DNA of 64,000 nucleotides from Nymphaea colorata. Lineage: Eukaryota; Streptophyta; Magnoliopsida; Nymphaeales; Nymphaeaceae. The translations under genes were made by a program, and so were the position numbers. Position 1 is the stretch's first letter, and each line of letters begins with the position of its first letter. Below the pieces are notes generated by a model, which worked only from the letters and a program-made list of their open reading frames with translations, did not search any database and was not told the origin of the DNA. The stretch covers positions 24,204,981 through 24,268,980 of the forward strand of contig NC_045147.1 of the NCBI RefSeq assembly GCF_008831285.2, in the 5' to 3' direction. Shown here in pieces: positions 391 to 63,250 of the stretch.

Positions 391-801
391 ATGGCACCCA
401 TGGCTGCGGCCAAAACCCGTCGAGTCCTGCTGCTCACTGTCTTCATGTTGCTCCTATTAACATGTTCAGGCAGCGGAGGAGGGGGTGGAAATGGAACGCT
501 GGGTCTGCATCGCAGGGTGGTGGAGGTCGGTTCCACTGAATTCGGGGGAGGGAGATTAATTGCATGTGAAGGACCGATGGGCGAGTGCTTCGAGGGAGAG
601 GAGGAGCTGATGGATTCAGAGATCAACCGTCGGTTGCTTGCTTCTGGAGGTGGCGGAATCGGTTACGACGCTCTTAAAAAGGAAGTTCCCAGATCACTCA
701 TGGCCAACAAGCCTGGAATGTCCTATCGGGGATGCGCACCAAACAGAGCCTACATGTGCCGTCCCTGCTCGTACGTAGCCGGATGCAACCGCCCTATCTA
801 G
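391..801 (+). CDS. RALF-family secreted peptide with contracted cysteine loops
   Basis: This 136-aa intronless precursor belongs to the RALF family, which are secreted peptides perceived at the cell surface by FERONIA-type receptor kinases with LLG co-receptors. Residues 11-25 form a hydrophobic signal peptide. An acidic propeptide (GPMGECFEGEEELMDSEIN) is followed by the site-1-protease-type site RRLL at 80-83. An IGYDALKK motif at 90-97 corresponds to the YISY region. The four C-terminal cysteines are C115, C123, C126 and C132, spaced x7, x2, x5. The intact canonical copies in this window at 13173 and 16511 have x9, x12, x5 and an NPYxR segment that is absent here. Two in-frame ATGs (391 and 400) are possible; paralogues start at the equivalent of 400. 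The family call rests on the propeptide and RRLL site shared with its neighbours. The altered C terminus makes activity uncertain. Confidence 0.85.
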   Translation: MAPMAAAKTRRVLLLTVFMLLLLTCSGSGGGGGNGTLGLHRRVVEVGSTEFGGGRLIACEGPMGECFEGEEELMDSEINRRLLASGGGGIGYDALKKEVPRSLMANKPGMSYRGCAPNRAYMCRPCSYVAGCNRPI

Positions 802-3098: not shown

Positions 3099-3502
3099 AT
3101 GGCTGCGGTCAAATCCCACGGAGCCCTGCTGCTCGGTGTCCTTCTCTTGCTCTTGTTAGCATGCTAAATGGAACTCTCGGTCGCCATCACAGGGTGGCGG
3201 TGGAGGTCGGTTCCACTGAATTTGGGAGGGAGGGATTAATTGGCTGTGATGGACCAATGGGCGAGTGCTTCGGCGACGAGGAGGAGGAGGAGGTGCAGAT
3301 GGATTCAGAGATCAACCGTTGGTTGCTCTCCGATGGACCGAATACTACTCCCTATGTCAGTTATGATTCTATTCGAAAGGGAGGTGGCTACCCCGCCATG
3401 ACCAAGGCTCTGATGCCCTATCTGCCATGCACAAAAGAGAGGGTCTTCCACTGCCGTGACCACCGCGGCTGCGGGTACCAATGCAAGAGAGGGAATCTGT
3501 AG
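3099..3502 (+). pseudogene. Frameshifted RALF, short-loop type
   Basis: The ATG at 3099 opens a signal peptide closely matching the neighbouring copies (MAAVKSHGALLLGVLLLLLLAC). It stops at 3165-3167. Relative to the copy at 391, a net 22 bases are missing between the signal peptide and the NGTLG segment, which throws the rest out of frame. The remaining open frame (3161-3502) still encodes propeptide and mature regions: VEVGSTEFGR, DSEINRWLL (the RRLL site is changed to RWLL) and four cysteines spaced x7, x5, x3. Without the joined frame, the surviving product has no signal peptide. It looks like a recent loss, because no other stop has accumulated downstream. Confidence 0.75.
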
Positions 3503-4717: not shown

Positions 4718-4950
4718 ATGGCTGCGGCCAAAACCCATAGAGTCATGCTGCTGAGTGCCCTCCTCTTGCTTCTTTTAACATGTTTAAACAAGGGAGGAGG
4801 TGGTGGAAATATTGGAACGCTGGATCTCCATCACAGGCTGGTGGAGGTCGGTGACTCGGTTCTACTGAAATGGAGAGGGGGAGATTAATTGGCTGTGAAT
4901 GATCGACGAGCGAGTGTTTCGAATGGGAGGTAGAGGAGCTGATGGATTAT
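4718..4950 (+). pseudogene. Truncated RALF relic
   Basis: The ATG at 4718 starts MAAAKTHRVMLLSALLLLLL, an intact RALF-cluster signal peptide. It is followed by a glycine-rich stretch and a LHHRLVEVG segment matching the first gene. An insertion near 4850 shifts the frame and a stop occurs at 4886-4888. Out-of-frame homology (ATTGGCTGTGA, CGAGCGAGTG, GAGCTGATGGATT) continues to about 4948. There the gene is abruptly replaced by the GATAA-rich repeat. The entire mature peptide is missing. Confidence 0.75.
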
Positions 4951-5736: not shown

Positions 5737-6002
5737 CAAGTTGGACTTATGAATGATGATGATGATGATGTTTGAGATCTTTATAACGTCGAACAGAAAA
5801 AGATTTTTTAAGCAACCAAGCTAACTAGCTAGGTCTAACTGAACCGGGTCCAGTTGGGTTAGGTGAAGCGTGTGCGTGTGTAGACGAGAGAGAGTTCAAA
5901 CTAACTTTTCGAGTTACCACCCCTTCTACTCATATCGATGAAATCGAATTGCCCGCAACAAATATACATTCTTTAAAAAAAACCAGTAATCTCAAGACGA
6001 AG

Positions 6003-6258
6003 TGTCCACTTGTGGCCAGGACTGATATGGCAGCATATCCTCTTATTCAATATAACTTTGAGTGTTTTCAACGTAGAATATAATAAGGACAGATAGGGAA
6101 CACCTTCATGTTGTCCTTATCAGCCTATGTGTGGCTGCTGTGGATATGCAGCAGTTGCCTGTCTAAAAAAATTGGCCGCCTTTGTCTAACGGGGACCTCC
6201 ATGACGTCTGCAGTTAAGGTGACACATCCATCCAGGACAGCCAATTAGAGAGAGAAGC
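6003..6258. repeat. Dispersed cluster repeat, copy 2
   Basis: This copy is similar to 2066-2300 and 6615-6897. It shares 'GATATGGCAGCAT.TCCTCTTA', 'GTAGAATAT', 'TAGGGAACACCT.CATGTT' and 'CATCCATCCAGGA' with copy 3. It is closest to copy 3, only about 600 bases away, which suggests a local duplication. Confidence 0.65.
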
Positions 6259-6614: not shown

Positions 6615-6897
6615 AGGAAAGTCTCCACCTCTGGCGAACAATGATATGGCAGCATTTCCTCTTAGTCAAGATAACTCAGAGTGCTTTCAACATAGAATAT
6701 GACAAGGAGAGGTAGGGAACACCTCCATGTTCATCTTATCTATCGACGTATGACTTCTGTGGCTATGGAGCAGTTGCATGTCAAGGAAAAGTGGCCGTCT
6801 TTGTCTAATTACAGGGACATTCATGATGGATGTCTGCAGTAAACCGTGGCACCACCGATACAATCCATCCAGGAGCAGCAAAATGCATTAGAACTCG
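6615..6897. repeat. Dispersed cluster repeat, copy 3
   Basis: This is the third copy of the segment also found at 2066-2300 and 6003-6258. It retains 'GTGGCTATGGAGCAGTTGCA' shared with copy 1 and 'TAGGGAACACCTCCATGTT' shared with copy 2. Open frames crossing it differ from copy to copy, so it is unlikely to be coding. A short TA run lies just upstream, at about 6480-6496. Confidence 0.65.
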
Positions 6898-7917: not shown

Positions 7918-8317
7918 ATGGCGGCGACCAAAACCCATGGCGTCCTGCTGCTGAGTGCCCTTCTCTTACTCTTATTTGCATGGCCGGGCAAGGGAGGAGA
8001 GGGTGGAGGAAATGTAACTCTCACCCACCAGTACAGGGCGGGGGAGATGGGTTCCACTGAACGGGGGAGGGGGGCATTTGGCTGTGATGGACTGACGAGC
8101 GAGTGCTTAGAGGCGGATGGATTCAGAGATCAACCGTCGGTTGCTCGCTGCTATGCCTATTTACAAACAATACATCTCTTATAAAGGTCTTGGACGAGAC
8201 GCCATCCAGGGCGCCAACCAGAGATTGGTTTCACGGAATTGCCCAAAAACCAATCCCTATCCATGCTTCCACTGCTCTTTCAAGGCTGGATGCGATCGGG
8301 GACCCGGTAGTGGTTGA
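7918..8317 (+). pseudogene. Frameshifted RALF, short-loop type
   Basis: The ATG at 7918 opens a good signal peptide (MAATKTHGVLLLSALLLLLF) and the propeptide segment FGCDGLTSECLE. Compared with the copy at 391, a net 11 bases are missing just before the conserved ATGGATTCAGAG. The original frame therefore runs off to a stop at 8184. The displaced frame (8117-8317) carries MDSEINRRLL, a perfect YISY motif and four cysteines spaced x7, x2, x5, identical in spacing to the copy at 391. One indel is enough to explain the break, so it is probably a recent pseudogene. Confidence 0.75.
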
Positions 8318-13172: not shown

Positions 13173-13541
13173 ATGGCTAAGCTCGGCGTTCAGTTGTTTA
13201 CGGCAATGGCAGCGGCGCTGCTGGTTGCGGCGTCGTTGACGGGGGAAGCAGAGGCGGGGCTGCTGAGCGGGGAGAGTGGGGTCGGGTGGCTGCCTGGAAG
13301 GCCGGCGTGCGATGGGACGATCGGTGAGTGCTTTGGCTGGGAGGCCGAGGAGATGGGGATGGACTCGGAGAGCAACCGGCGGATCCTGCAGACAAACCAG
13401 TACATCAGCTACGAGGCGCTGAAGAGGAACAGCATCCCCTGCTCCACCGGCGGCGCCTCTTACTACAACTGCCGCCCCGGCGCAGAGGCCAACCCCTACA
13501 CCCGCAGCTGCAACGACATCACCCGCTGTGCCCGCTCTTAA
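13173..13541 (+). CDS. RALF-like secreted peptide precursor, canonical
   Basis: This is a 122-aa intronless precursor. A hydrophobic signal peptide spans roughly 5-28. The propeptide contains the conserved WLPGRPACDGTIGECFG and MDSESN segments. The dibasic processing site RRIL is at 69-72. The mature peptide of about 50 residues has YISY at 77-80, GASYYNC at 94-100, NPYTR at 107-111 and cysteines C90, C100, C113 and C119 (spacing x9, x12, x5). This is the standard RALF layout. Mature RALFs bind CrRLK1L receptors with LLG proteins at the cell surface and control growth, wall integrity and pH. The mature C terminus is nearly identical to that of the copy at 16511, so the two are probably recent duplicates. 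Confidence 0.95.
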   Translation: MAKLGVQLFTAMAAALLVAASLTGEAEAGLLSGESGVGWLPGRPACDGTIGECFGWEAEEMGMDSESNRRILQTNQYISYEALKRNSIPCSTGGASYYNCRPGAEANPYTRSCNDITRCARS

Positions 13542-16510: not shown

Positions 16511-16864
16511 ATGGCGACTCTTTGCTCCCGTTTCATCCTGATGGTGGTGGTGGCATTGGTTGTCTCATCGGACGCAGGCTTGCTTAGTGGGGAGGGAGGC
16601 GACCAGCTGGGGTGGCTGCATGGGCGGCGGGCATGCGAGAGCTCCATCGAGGAGTGCATGGGAGGGGAGCAGATAGGGATGGAGTCGGAGATCAACCGGC
16701 GGATCCTGCAGGCGGCGTCGCAGTACATCGGCTACGGAGCTCTGATCAAGGGGAGCACGCCCTGCTCCGTCAGCGGCGCTTCCTACTACAACTGCCGCCC
16801 CGGCGCAGAGGCCAACCCTTACACCCGCTCCTGTTCCGTCATCACCCGCTGCGCCCGCTCTTAG
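16511..16864 (+). CDS. RALF-like secreted peptide precursor, canonical
   Basis: This is a 117-aa intronless precursor. I chose the ATG at 16511 (context ACCATGG) because it directly precedes the signal peptide (MATLCSRFILMVVVALVVSS). An in-frame upstream extension to 16394 lies across the TATA box and is not plausible. The propeptide has GWLHGRRACESSIEECM, and the cleavage site RRIL is at 63-66. The mature region has YIGY at 72-75, SYYNC, NPYTR and cysteines C85, C95, C108 and C114 (x9, x12, x5), ending ITRCARS. It shares its C terminus almost completely with the 13173 gene. Confidence 0.95.
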   Translation: MATLCSRFILMVVVALVVSSDAGLLSGEGGDQLGWLHGRRACESSIEECMGGEQIGMESEINRRILQAASQYIGYGALIKGSTPCSVSGASYYNCRPGAEANPYTRSCSVITRCARS

Positions 16865-29329: not shown

Positions 29330-29716
29330 ATGGTGAACCCGAGAGACCCCTTCCTCCTGGCGACAGCAATAGCGTTCTTGGCATGCGCCTTGTTGAGCGG
29401 AGAGGTGGAAGTCGGCTCGCTGAGCGGGGAGAACGAGCTGGGGTGGGCAGCGTCCTGGTCGGCGTGCGACGGGACAACTGGGGAGTGCTTGGGGGGAGAG
29501 GAAGCCGAGGAGATGGCCATGGATTCCGAGAGCAACCGGCGGATCCTGCAGGGTACTGGCAATTACATTTCATACAGGGGACTGCATCGCGATCCCTCAT
29601 GCCCAATTCACGGAGTTTCCTACTACCAGTGCAGTAGACCAGCGCCGTTGAACGACCCTTACAAGCGCCCCTGCACCTTCCGCAACGAATGTGCGCGTGG
29701 TAGCCCGCCATTCTAG
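29330..29716 (+). CDS. RALF-like secreted peptide precursor
   Basis: This is a 128-aa intronless precursor. A hydrophobic signal segment spans about 8-28. The propeptide LGWAASWSACDGTTGECLGG and EEMAMDSESN matches the other canonical copies. The RRIL site is at 70-73 and YISY at 79-82. Cysteines are C91, C101, C115 and C121 (x9, x13, x5), with VSYYQC and NDPYKR in place of YYNC and NPYTR. It ends NECARGSPPF, a longer and less basic tail than the ITRCARS copies. The frame is intact and the start codon directly follows the conserved GA-rich leader. Confidence 0.9.
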   Translation: MVNPRDPFLLATAIAFLACALLSGEVEVGSLSGENELGWAASWSACDGTTGECLGGEEAEEMAMDSESNRRILQGTGNYISYRGLHRDPSCPIHGVSYYQCSRPAPLNDPYKRPCTFRNECARGSPPF

Positions 29717-31488: not shown

Positions 31489-31887
31489 ATGGCGAACCAG
31501 AGAGGCCCCTGTTTCCTGGCCATGGAGGTAGCGTTCTTGGGTGCCGCCTTGATGACTTTGGAGGTGGGCGCCTCCTCGCTGAGCGGGGAGGGCGGGCTGG
31601 GTTGGGCAGCGGCCTGGCCGGCGTGCGGTGGGGCCACCGGGGGGTGCTTAGAATCAGGGGAGGAAGCGGAGGAGATGGCCATGGACTCGGAGAGCAACCG
31701 GCGGATCCTGCAGGACACGACGCACTTGAGTTATGCGGCGCTGCTCAGGGACTCGACCCCCTGCAAACACCCCGGATCTCCCTACTCCAACTGCCGACCA
31801 AATGCTGTCAACCCTTACACCCGCCCTTGCGCCGACATCACCGGCTGTGGCCGCCATCAAGTTCCGGCAACCCGCCTTCGAGACTGA
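31489..31887 (+). CDS. RALF-like secreted peptide precursor, divergent C terminus
   Basis: This is a 132-aa intronless precursor, starting at the ATG in GGTGATGGCG. The signal region (about 8-29) is followed by LGWAAAWPACGGATGGCLESGEEAEEMAMDSESN, nearly parallel to the 29330 copy. The RRIL site is at 71-74. YISY has become HLSY (79-82). Cysteines are C92, C102, C114 and C120 (x9, x11, x5) with NPYTR retained. The usual ITRCxR ending is ITGCGRH, followed by a ten-residue tail, so the terminal basic residue before the last cysteine is lost. The frame is open throughout. Confidence 0.88.
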   Translation: MANQRGPCFLAMEVAFLGAALMTLEVGASSLSGEGGLGWAAAWPACGGATGGCLESGEEAEEMAMDSESNRRILQDTTHLSYAALLRDSTPCKHPGSPYSNCRPNAVNPYTRPCADITGCGRHQVPATRLRD

Positions 31888-34090: not shown

Positions 34091-34627
34091 TCAAAGGAGC
34101 CTATAATTCACAAACGCCACGAAAGCAACCCAGAACAAGTAAGGCTTGACGAGATCGCCGGCGATCGGATTGGCCGATCGGAAGCTCCGGTAGCATACGA
34201 CAGCTAGGCCAACGAGCAAAAGGGAAATCGCGAACGCAAAGCGTGTCGCGCCGAAGCCAAAAGCCAGCGCCCAGACGAAGCTGAGTCCGAGCTCTGCCGC
34301 GTACACTGACAGGGCGCCGGACTGCTGCTGCAAGCCGCCCTCCACCCAGACGAGCCACGAGGAGAGACCCATGGTGGCGCACGAGACCAGCCAACCGAAG
34401 TCGTGGAGCCAAACCGGACACCAAACCGATCTGTCGCGGAGATGGCGGTCACCCAGTCGGAGGTTGACGCAACCTAGCAGGAAGGGTATCGCCACGGCCA
34501 CGGCAAGAGAGCGCAGGCCTCTCTTGGCCAGCGCCATCTTGTTGGCTCTCGGGTTCTTGCTTCTGACGTCGCCGCTCGACAGGCGCGACTCATCTCGGAC
34601 TCGGTGCTTCAGATCAGACGACTCCAT
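34091..34627 (-). CDS. TSPO: TSPO/MBR-family tryptophan-rich membrane protein
   Basis: This 178-aa intronless protein matches plant TSPO (outer membrane tryptophan-rich sensory protein) in overall layout. A charged plant-type N-terminal extension ends in MALAKRGLRSLAVAVA (31-46). TSPO motifs follow in order: WCPVW (69-73), a segment ending WLVWVEGG (91-98), a transmembrane stretch at about 109-125, another at 130-146, and the C-terminal AGDLVKPYLFWVAFVAFVN (156-174). Plant TSPOs bind porphyrins and are induced by ABA and osmotic stress; they reside in ER/Golgi membranes and are removed by autophagy. The expected five hydrophobic segments are visible. Compared with the pattern I know, loop residues are shortened by about 10-20 aa. 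It is a single-exon gene, as is usual for plant TSPO. Confidence 0.85.
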   Translation of the reverse strand: MESSDLKHRVRDESRLSSGDVRSKNPRANKMALAKRGLRSLAVAVAIPFLLGCVNLRLGDRHLRDRSVWCPVWLHDFGWLVSCATMGLSSWLVWVEGGLQQQSGALSVYAAELGLSFVWALAFGFGATRFAFAISLLLVGLAVVCYRSFRSANPIAGDLVKPYLFWVAFVAFVNYRLL

Positions 34628-35926
34628 GGCTTGACGAAGGGAAGAAAACAGATGACAGGAAGAAGGAGCAGAAAAAAGGACAGGGTTTCAAGGAGATGAG
34701 GAGGAAGAAATGGCGTCCTTGTATAACAACGTCCCTCATGTCGAGGATGACCAAAAGGGCCTTCCAATTTCTCAAAACGACCACCACGGTGCAGATCTGA
34801 ACGGCGCCCATATTCAGCTTGAGTCATCCGACCGCGCCGATACAGGCGCGAGACCGACGAGACCAGGGGAGGCCCTTGAGCGCGACGAGCCAAAGCTCCC
34901 CAACGGGGATAAAATGGTAATTGTGAAGGATAGAAAGTAGTTGTGCGGAAGACCTTCGTAAAAGGCGGGGGCGGGGGATTTTGGTGCCCCAGCGGACGTG
35001 TCGCTCCGCCTCCATACGTGTATGGAGAGCATGCAAGGAACCATCTCCCGCGGAAGGGACACGCACACGTGGGAGCAGCAGTGCCACGTAATCGAGTCCC
35101 CGATCTTCCGGGTGCTCTTATGGAAAGACGCTGAAACTGCCTCAAGAAACTGAGAGGCAAGTCAGACGCACGGCCCCTGAAATGGGACCCGGCGGTGCGA
35201 GATTTTGAGTGGCTGCCGACGGACGGCGGTCGTCCATGTCCATATATATTTGGTTTATCGCCGGCTTGGCCGCACGTCCTCACATGCCGGCGCTTCTTTG
35301 GACAGCCGAGGAGGAGGAGCTCTCAGGCTGACAGCCCACAATGAAAGATCAGGAAATCTTCCCGCGAGGAAAATTCAAATTTGGGTAACATAATACCAAC
35401 TGCGACCTAGTCCCTTTCTTCGGTAGTCACATCCAACGTGATCAAGATCAGATTTCATCTCGCCTCATATATACGCTCAGCGGTCATAGGAAATAAATAA
35501 AATAAAAATTATTTTTTTTTCTCTCCTACAAATACACGATACAAAATATGGCCGATATTTGGAAGGGGCCGTTTTGGGTCCTACTTTCGTCGTATCATTC
35601 TCTTAGTGCCTCGCCATTGTTAATGACACTCATCGTTCCATCCTTCGTTCTTGCAATTAAAAGCTTTAAAAAGCTAACTGAAAAATAGACAGGTAAACCA
35701 ATCATGCATAAGCAGTTTCGTTGCCGAAGTGTTGACACAGAAGAATATACTTAGACAATATGAAGTTGTCGTGGTGCACCGTCGCGGTTGTTTTCGAGTT
35801 CACCTGTGCAGTTTTCAGTTCAAATTTTAGAGATAAGTGAACCATTAAAGATGAGCAAACAACAAATTAAGGGACTGGCTTAACTTAACCATTCAAGCAT
35901 AGTGTACTGAACAACAAAAGAGATGC
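34628..35926. other. Upstream region of TSPO and spacer
   Basis: 34628-35340 is GC-richer than the rest and probably includes the TSPO leader and promoter. Overlapping open frames on both strands here have no recognisable domain. 35340-35926 is AT-rich and shows no gene. Confidence 0.45.
35065..35090. promoter_or_regulatory. G-box/ABRE-like elements upstream of TSPO
   Basis: A CACGTG G-box at 35066-35071 in the ACACGTGGG context and a CCACGTAA at 35084-35091 lie about 440 bases upstream of the TSPO start on the minus strand. Paired ACGT-core elements are the usual ABA-responsive arrangement and fit the ABA induction known for plant TSPO genes. Confidence 0.5.
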
Positions 35927-42877: not shown

Positions 42878-60844
<17,967 letters not shown>

Positions 60845-61685: not shown

Positions 61686-62321
61686 CTACGCCCTTATATG
61701 CAGAGCATCTGCTCTTAACAAAAATGGATAACCAATCCCCTTCCTCTTTGAGGGGAACATCACAAGCAGAAGGCTGATCACAAACCCGAATACCAACGGG
61801 ACCACGTTAGTCACCTTCCTTGGCATAGCCTTGTAGTAGCACGCCGCAACATCATTATGTGACGAAGCAAATGCCAGAAATGCTACAATTGATAGAGTGA
61901 CATGAAACAGATCGCTTAATCTCAGTCGGTAGGCCGATGGGTCGGCAGGCTTTCTCCGGCCGCCGCTTAAGCTCCATATCCCATGGATGGTAGCAACCCC
62001 ATAACAAATTCTTCCAGATACTGTTCTGTAACTGTCCATCAATGTAAAGAATGCGCACGACAACACACAGAAGCCTAAGAAGATGGCCGTCAGCCACCGG
62101 TTTAGTGTACCGCATGATCCATCGTTGGTCGCCAGTGGAGCAAAGATGGTGAAGCCCAGGATAGTTGCAGTCGGTAGCAGGACATTAAGTCGCGCCGTGC
62201 CGCTAAGGATTGCGTTTAACATGTAAATGAACCGGGTCTCGTTGGATTCAGCATCGTCGTCGTCATTGTCGTCACAAATTTGAATTAGAGGTTTTCCGAT
62301 GGGGATGTCTACGGAAGCCAT
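61686..62321 (-). CDS. DMP (DUF679) four-pass membrane protein
   Basis: This 211-aa intronless protein is of the plant-specific DMP family. After an acidic N terminus (DDNDDDDAESNE, 17-28), the conserved core begins GTARLNVLLPTATILGFTIFAP (41-62). Hydrophobic segments at about 44-62, 76-95, 138-155 and 172-189 give the expected four membrane spans. The family hallmarks are GTLNRWLTAIFL, CAFFTLMDSYRT and an SDLFHV motif before span 3. DMP proteins act in ER and vacuole membranes during senescence; the DMP8/9 branch is needed for gamete fusion. I cannot assign the branch here. The ATG at 62321 is the first before the acidic region, and a TATATA element lies just upstream (about 62356). Confidence 0.92.
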   Translation of the reverse strand: MASVDIPIGKPLIQICDDNDDDDAESNETRFIYMLNAILSGTARLNVLLPTATILGFTIFAPLATNDGSCGTLNRWLTAIFLGFCVLSCAFFTLMDSYRTVSGRICYGVATIHGIWSLSGGRRKPADPSAYRLRLSDLFHVTLSIVAFLAFASSHNDVAACYYKAMPRKVTNVVPLVFGFVISLLLVMFPSKRKGIGYPFLLRADALHIRA

Positions 62322-63250
62322 GGATAATGCTCAGCAGGAGCTTTGATGTTTTGTGCTATATATGCAATACGCAATCTTATCTTGTTATTCCTTTTCTGGT
62401 TGAGGAGGTCAGCTTTAATTTGGCGTTTTCTTTGCCGGAAGAAAGAACTTCTGAATACGTTAAGCATCAGTATGAAGCGTGAGGAGGTGACTACAAGCCA
62501 GTCAGCCACGATCAGAATTAAAGCATCAGAATTTTATTCTGGTTGGGATTCATTAAATTTAAAGCTCGTGAACCTTGTCAGGCAATAGCTCCAGAAACAC
62601 CTTCGAAATCACAAAATTGCTTATGTTGGGGCTTATTAAGCTTGCTACCAGAGGCATTTATTTATCCTCTGCCTCACGTTACGGTATATATATATATATA
62701 ATTCTGGTTCTGGATCTTTTTTAACTAATTTTAAGCAGAAGCTACTGAAGAATCTCAATCTCAGGCCCCAGTCCAGATCGCCGCTTCGTTTCTAACATGA
62801 TTTTTGACATAGCTTGCTTCATTTTGCTAATTTATTTAAAGTTGTGTCAAATTTCTGCAATTTGCTTCTTATTTTAATCCTTTTGCATTCGAATGAAAAC
62901 ATTTCAAGTTATTTTTACTCAAACTCAAAGGGCGTGGTACAATTGGGCAGTAAGGCGGTTTACATTTAAAAGATTCTTGTAGTCGTCGTCACACCTTGGT
63001 GTTATATTCCTGCGAACTGCAAAATAAGAACTATGATGACCAAGAATCTTAGAAGCACAAAAGTATAATCCTTGAATTTTACTCAGAGACAAGAGACAGT
63101 TTCTTTTACATAAATTAGTATTAAATATGAAGGAAAATAAAAAATTTCTATCGAAAAGCGGAGTATAACATTTATCAGGTAGCCCGGAAGATCTTCCAGT
63201 CGTTTTCGGCAGTCGGATTTTGTTTTAAGAAAATATGGCTGACGAATGGG
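62322..63250. other. Intergenic, promoter of DMP and spacer
   Basis: A TATATATATAT run lies at about 62684-62700. No gene was seen. Open frames at 62309-62588 overlap on both strands and lack domains. Confidence 0.4.

Follow-up and report, generated by a model that had tools for sequence, protein, structure and literature searches.

The question raised by this locus is how a gene that looks like a RALF precursor came to carry its cysteines at unusual distances, and whether its product can still act as a RALF ligand. To our knowledge, the cysteine frame of RALFs of clades I-III is regarded as nearly fixed. Paralogues with one moved cysteine that lie beside canonical sisters would therefore offer a ready test of which disulfide is required for RALF signalling; should the genes prove silent or in decay, the case would be one of ordinary turnover of tandem peptide genes. 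The window, a stretch of 64,000 nucleotides of Nymphaea colorata (C10:24204981-24268980), was analysed together with flanking DNA, and the 407.8-Mb assembly was searched for related copies. Positions are those of the window, negative ones lying upstream of it (Table 1). A literature search on RALFs of water lilies or the genus Nymphaea returned no title or abstract that deals with this array.

Table 1. Features of the RALF array and of the gene at 391-801
Feature	Position	Strand	Basis or remark
TATA-like box TATAAAA	243..249	+	157 bases before ATG 400; position only; flank alignment
RALF-like precursor gene, 136 aa	391..801	+	open ORF; Pfam RALF match
Hydrophobic leader, probable signal peptide, core VLLLTVFMLLLL	400..465	+	hydropathy
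RRLL, predicted cleavage site of site-1-protease type	628..639	+	sequence
Predicted mature peptide, 53 aa, net charge +6	640..798	+	sequence
IGYDALKK	658..681	+	same residues in solved Arabidopsis RALF4 (YIGYDALKK)
Cys homologous to canonical Cys2	733..735	+	constrained and codon alignment
New Cys (TGC) at the Arg place of NPYxR (canonical CGC)	757..759	+	codon and DNA alignment
Cys homologous to canonical Cys3	766..768	+	constrained and codon alignment
Cys homologous to canonical Cys4	784..786	+	constrained and codon alignment
Variant copy, broken	3099..3502	+	stop in leader and frame change; Cys2, new Cys, Cys3 and Cys4 kept
Variant copy, 5' fragment	4718..4950	+	leader and pro-region only, without mature part
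Variant copy, broken	7918..8317	+	frame break at pro-region/mature junction; mature part x7-x2-x5, NPYPC
Canonical RALF, yardstick	13173..13541	+	x9-x12-x5
Canonical RALF, yardstick	16511..16864	+	x9-x12-x5
Canonical RALF, yardstick	29330..29716	+	x9-x13-x5
Canonical RALF, yardstick	31489..31887	+	x9-x11-x5

The gene at 391-801 has an open frame (MAPMAAAKTRRVLLLTVFMLLLLTC...EINRRLLASGGGGIGYDALKKEVPRSLMANKPGMSYRGCAPNRAYMCRPCSYVAGCNRPI), and its precursor matches the Pfam RALF profile (PF05498) with 29.3 bits at a cut-off of 22, in agreement with the first-pass annotation, which had called it a RALF precursor from the letters alone. The ATG at 400 (MAAAK...) agrees with the start of the other copies, and the one at 391 would add three residues. 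The leader is homologous across all copies that still have one, both intact copies and the broken one at 7918 have the TATA-like box, and RRxL follows an acidic pro-region (EGEEELMDSEINRRLL). RRLL and IGYDALKK are both in place, and the receptor-proximal part is recognisably retained, as had been proposed; the YISY-type motif reads GIGY in this gene (first Tyr to Gly), YVSY in the copy at -3175 and YISY in that at 7918. A sequence search of the PDB with this gene returned RALF4 chains only, as weak matches (best E 0.043) with IGYDALKK in common. The 53-residue mature part, searched alone against Pfam, gave no RALF profile match; its match to zf-C2H2_REST (12.8 bits, below the cut-off of 27) was taken as chance. 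The profile match, the cleavage site and the N-terminal motif make the gene a RALF, but one that lacks Cys1 and an intact NPYxR.

Genome searches with protein and DNA queries found six tandem copies of this kind, hereafter the variant copies, at -5270, -3175, 391, 3099, 4718 and 7918, of which four are broken (-5270, 3099, 4718 and 7918) and two, 391 and -3175, are intact. The second intact gene lies outside the window, 3.2 kb upstream (C10:24201805-24202212); it encodes 135 aa with the spacing C-x5-C-x2-C-x5-C, and its precursor matches PF05498 with 22.9 bits (cut-off 22). The copy at -5270, likewise outside the window, has lost its tail after Cys2; it shares an identical stop in the leader with the copy at 3099, and the two are near relatives (dS 0.09). 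The x7-x2-x5 spacing reported for the gene at 391 and for the mature part of the 7918 copy was reproduced in our translations, as was x7-x5-x3 for the copy at 3099, where small in-frame indels are responsible and the four cysteines of the variant set are retained. That set (Cys2, new Cys, Cys3, Cys4) occurs in each of the four copies whose tail is complete, including the intact one at -3175. In six frames of 84 kb, the motif C-x5-7-C-x2-C-x5-C was found at three sites only, all of them RALF copies, and its occurrence in the variant copies is not due to chance. In a protein tree the variant copies form a single clade (support 91/98), whose placement relative to the canonical genes lacks resolution. 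Since they form one clade with a common cysteine set, the change probably arose once, ahead of the local duplications, a conclusion with moderate support that agrees with the order of events proposed in the first-pass annotation. A 190-base direct repeat (6000-6189 and 6619-6808, 80% identity) also lies between RALF copies.

The first-pass annotation described the unusual spacing as a contraction of the cysteine loops, and here our results differ. Mature peptides of the variant copies were aligned with nine canonical RALFs with their cysteines pinned, either in order or with the first, third and fourth cysteines set against canonical Cys2, Cys3 and Cys4, respectively, which implies the loss of Cys1. 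Under the Cys1-loss pinning the mean score was 39 for the gene at 391 (7 in order), 32 for the copy at -3175 (16 in order) and 30 for that at 7918 (6 in order); the contrast was weak for the copy at 3099 (13 versus 11). A profile of canonical peptides aligned the 391 and 7918 copies in the same way as the Cys1-loss pinning; in the -3175 copy it set the first cysteine off by a few residues, with PYxC still on PYxR, and one MAFFT run also put that cysteine elsewhere. At the codon level, canonical CCC TAC ACC CGC (P-Y-T-R) aligns with CCC TAC GAT TGC in the -3175 copy, GCC TAC ATG TGC in the gene at 391 and CCC TAT CCA TGC in the 7918 copy, and all three have one additional codon between the new cysteine and Cys3. 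One C-to-T change at the Arg codon would thus explain the new cysteine. The Cys1 site is occupied by Arg in the gene at 391 and by Phe at -3175, the alignment being less sure there for the 7918 copy. The four cysteines, hence, do not all stand at conserved RALF positions: Cys2, Cys3 and Cys4 are in place, Cys1 is missing and the fourth cysteine is relocated, so that one was lost and one gained; the constrained and codon alignments together rule out contracted loops. In line with this, the Cys3-Cys4 spacing of the 391 gene is unchanged at 5 residues, and its Cys2-Cys3 loop has 10 residues (8-10 across the complete copies with x2) versus 11-13 in the canonical copies of the window. The canonical spacing itself is less uniform than the x9-x12-x5 that had been taken as standard, which holds for two of the four window copies. 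NPYxR had been described as gone; the motif is broken before Cys3 (RAYMC in the 391 gene, IPYDC at -3175, NPYPC at 7918), but it was altered more than lost, as much of it survives in the sister copies, with the Arg turned into Cys.

With the canonical RALFs of clades I-III (Campbell and Turner 2017; e.g. Arabidopsis RALF4 and RALF23) the variant copies have in common the leader, the acidic pro-region, RRxL, a YISY-like helix, a basic mature peptide and the Cys3-x5-Cys4 ring; they differ in lacking Cys1 and in the new cysteine, two residues before Cys3, that replaces the Arg of NPYxR. RALF-related peptides of clade IV also have a non-standard cysteine set and variation in YISY, but many of them lack Cys2, whereas Cys1 is the one missing here, and neither RRxL nor the acidic region is found in that clade (PMC5258720). 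As both are present in the gene at 391, it is, on these features, not a member of clade IV. The RALF mimics of Fusarium and root-knot nematodes likewise lack the Cys1-Cys2 disulfide and keep the second (PMC10442051), but the variant copies carry a replacement cysteine and are plant genes within a plant RALF array.

Selection was estimated from the two intact genes. Over the whole gene omega is 0.72-0.79 (CI 0.53-1.19, p 0.21 against 1), with 0.45 (p 0.05) for the pro-region and 0.92-1.09 for the mature part, whereas the values for canonical tandem pairs of the same array, 0.31-0.35 and 0.19, are all plainly lower than 1. Constraint on the variant pair is therefore weak. Purifying selection on the mature peptide was not detectable by omega in these two genes, the alignment being short and of low power, and no test for positive selection was significant in the subgroup. 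A value near 1 had been named beforehand as counting against the first-pass proposal, and the mature part indeed gave about 0.9-1.1, which is compatible with decay and with weak function alike.

The reading we favour, and consider rather likely, is that the variant copies are a lineage-specific, local tandem subgroup of RALFs with a relocated cysteine, whose members would be weak or altered ligands and undergo birth-and-death turnover; we read the data in this way in preference to a new function, which is not proven. On this view, the ancestor of the subgroup lost Cys1, and its NPYxR Arg changed to Cys, with one codon gained before Cys3. The precursor would be secreted and cleaved at RRLL, and the peptide would act on receptors through the I-G-Y helix and the Cys3-Cys4 ring, while the subgroup turns over through duplication and decay, its mature peptide under weak constraint.

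It is possible, though in our view unlikely, that the gene at 391 is a functionless pseudogene in waiting, unconstrained since its duplication and open by luck. The whole-gene omega, which is indistinct from 1, the similar value of the mature part and the four broken sister copies all fit such a history, but at the dS of the intact pair (~0.48) a simulated neutral frame was still open in ~5% of runs per lineage, and the joint chance for both, as the product of the per-lineage figures, is ~0.003, so that neutral drift would probably have broken the two frames. The pro-region omega also speaks against it, as does the retention of the cysteines amid fast-changing neighbours: three copies agree in 12 of 47 columns, and all four cysteines stand in these (P 0.003), in an alignment that favours cysteines. 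The TATA-like box points the same way, with the reservation that the broken 7918 copy has it too.

Under the birth-and-death reading, the disulfides deserve attention. In RALF8, NMR showed bonds Cys1-Cys2 and Cys3-Cys4 in a free peptide that is mostly disordered (PMC6511734), and according to a review the immune effect of RALF1 requires the second bond, the one that fungal and nematode RALFs keep when the first is absent (PMC10442051). With Cys3 and Cys4 retained, and with a possible new partner five or seven residues on from the now unpaired Cys2, the variant peptide would most likely still form two disulfides, Cys2-Cys' and Cys3-Cys4. AlphaFold2 models of the mature peptides of the 391 gene (pLDDT 49.5, pTM 0.19) and of a canonical copy (pLDDT 55.1, pTM 0.24) were of low confidence, as expected for peptides reported to be mostly disordered (PMC6511734), and they are silent on disulfides. 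That the Arg site of NPYxR was taken over as the new partner of Cys2, and that the two-disulfide peptide is functional with changed binding to receptor or wall, we regard as doubtful. As RALF4-LLG3 binding has been placed in the Cys2-Cys4 region (PMC10442051), its alteration may also have consequences for co-receptor binding, beyond LRX and wall polymers. This bears on a new role, e.g., as a putative decoy or antagonist that binds LLG through its N-terminal helix and leaves the receptor or LRX complex incomplete, which seems very improbable: IGYDALKK matches RALF4, the Cys2-Cys4 region is altered and an omega near 1 leaves room for constraint mixed with positive change, but positive selection had no significant test behind it, and LLG3 binding in the altered region weakens the case for an intact co-receptor contact. 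Finally, that all four canonical cysteines were kept and the loops cut to x7 and x2 is almost certainly wrong. The cysteine total of four and the unchanged x5 fit it, but a long stretch would have to be inserted ahead of the first cysteine and about ten residues removed from between the second and third; it also scores much lower in three copies and is contradicted by the DNA, which puts TGC opposite the CGC of NPYxR.

Other RALF-like sequences were noticed on the same chromosome. Two 3.1-kb loci, L013 (C10:24391172) and L015 (C10:24373056), carry copies, close to each other, with x9-x12-x3 and the ending RCSGTCLR, and the omega of their mature part is indistinct from 1. L017 (C10:24377207) is RALF-like as well and has YISY and two cysteines, but its frame soon ends (RPPFP, then a stop), and its profile match is limited to positions 10-46. 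Elsewhere in the window, an open stretch (52284-52625, plus strand) that weakly matches a tRNA-synthetase editing domain (21.4 bits, below the cut-off of 25) is probably a single exon of a gene for a class I tRNA synthetase, and two ORFs on the minus strand match TspO/MBR (34094-34687, 198 aa, 85.1 bits) and DUF679 (61689-62330, 214 aa, 174.4 bits).
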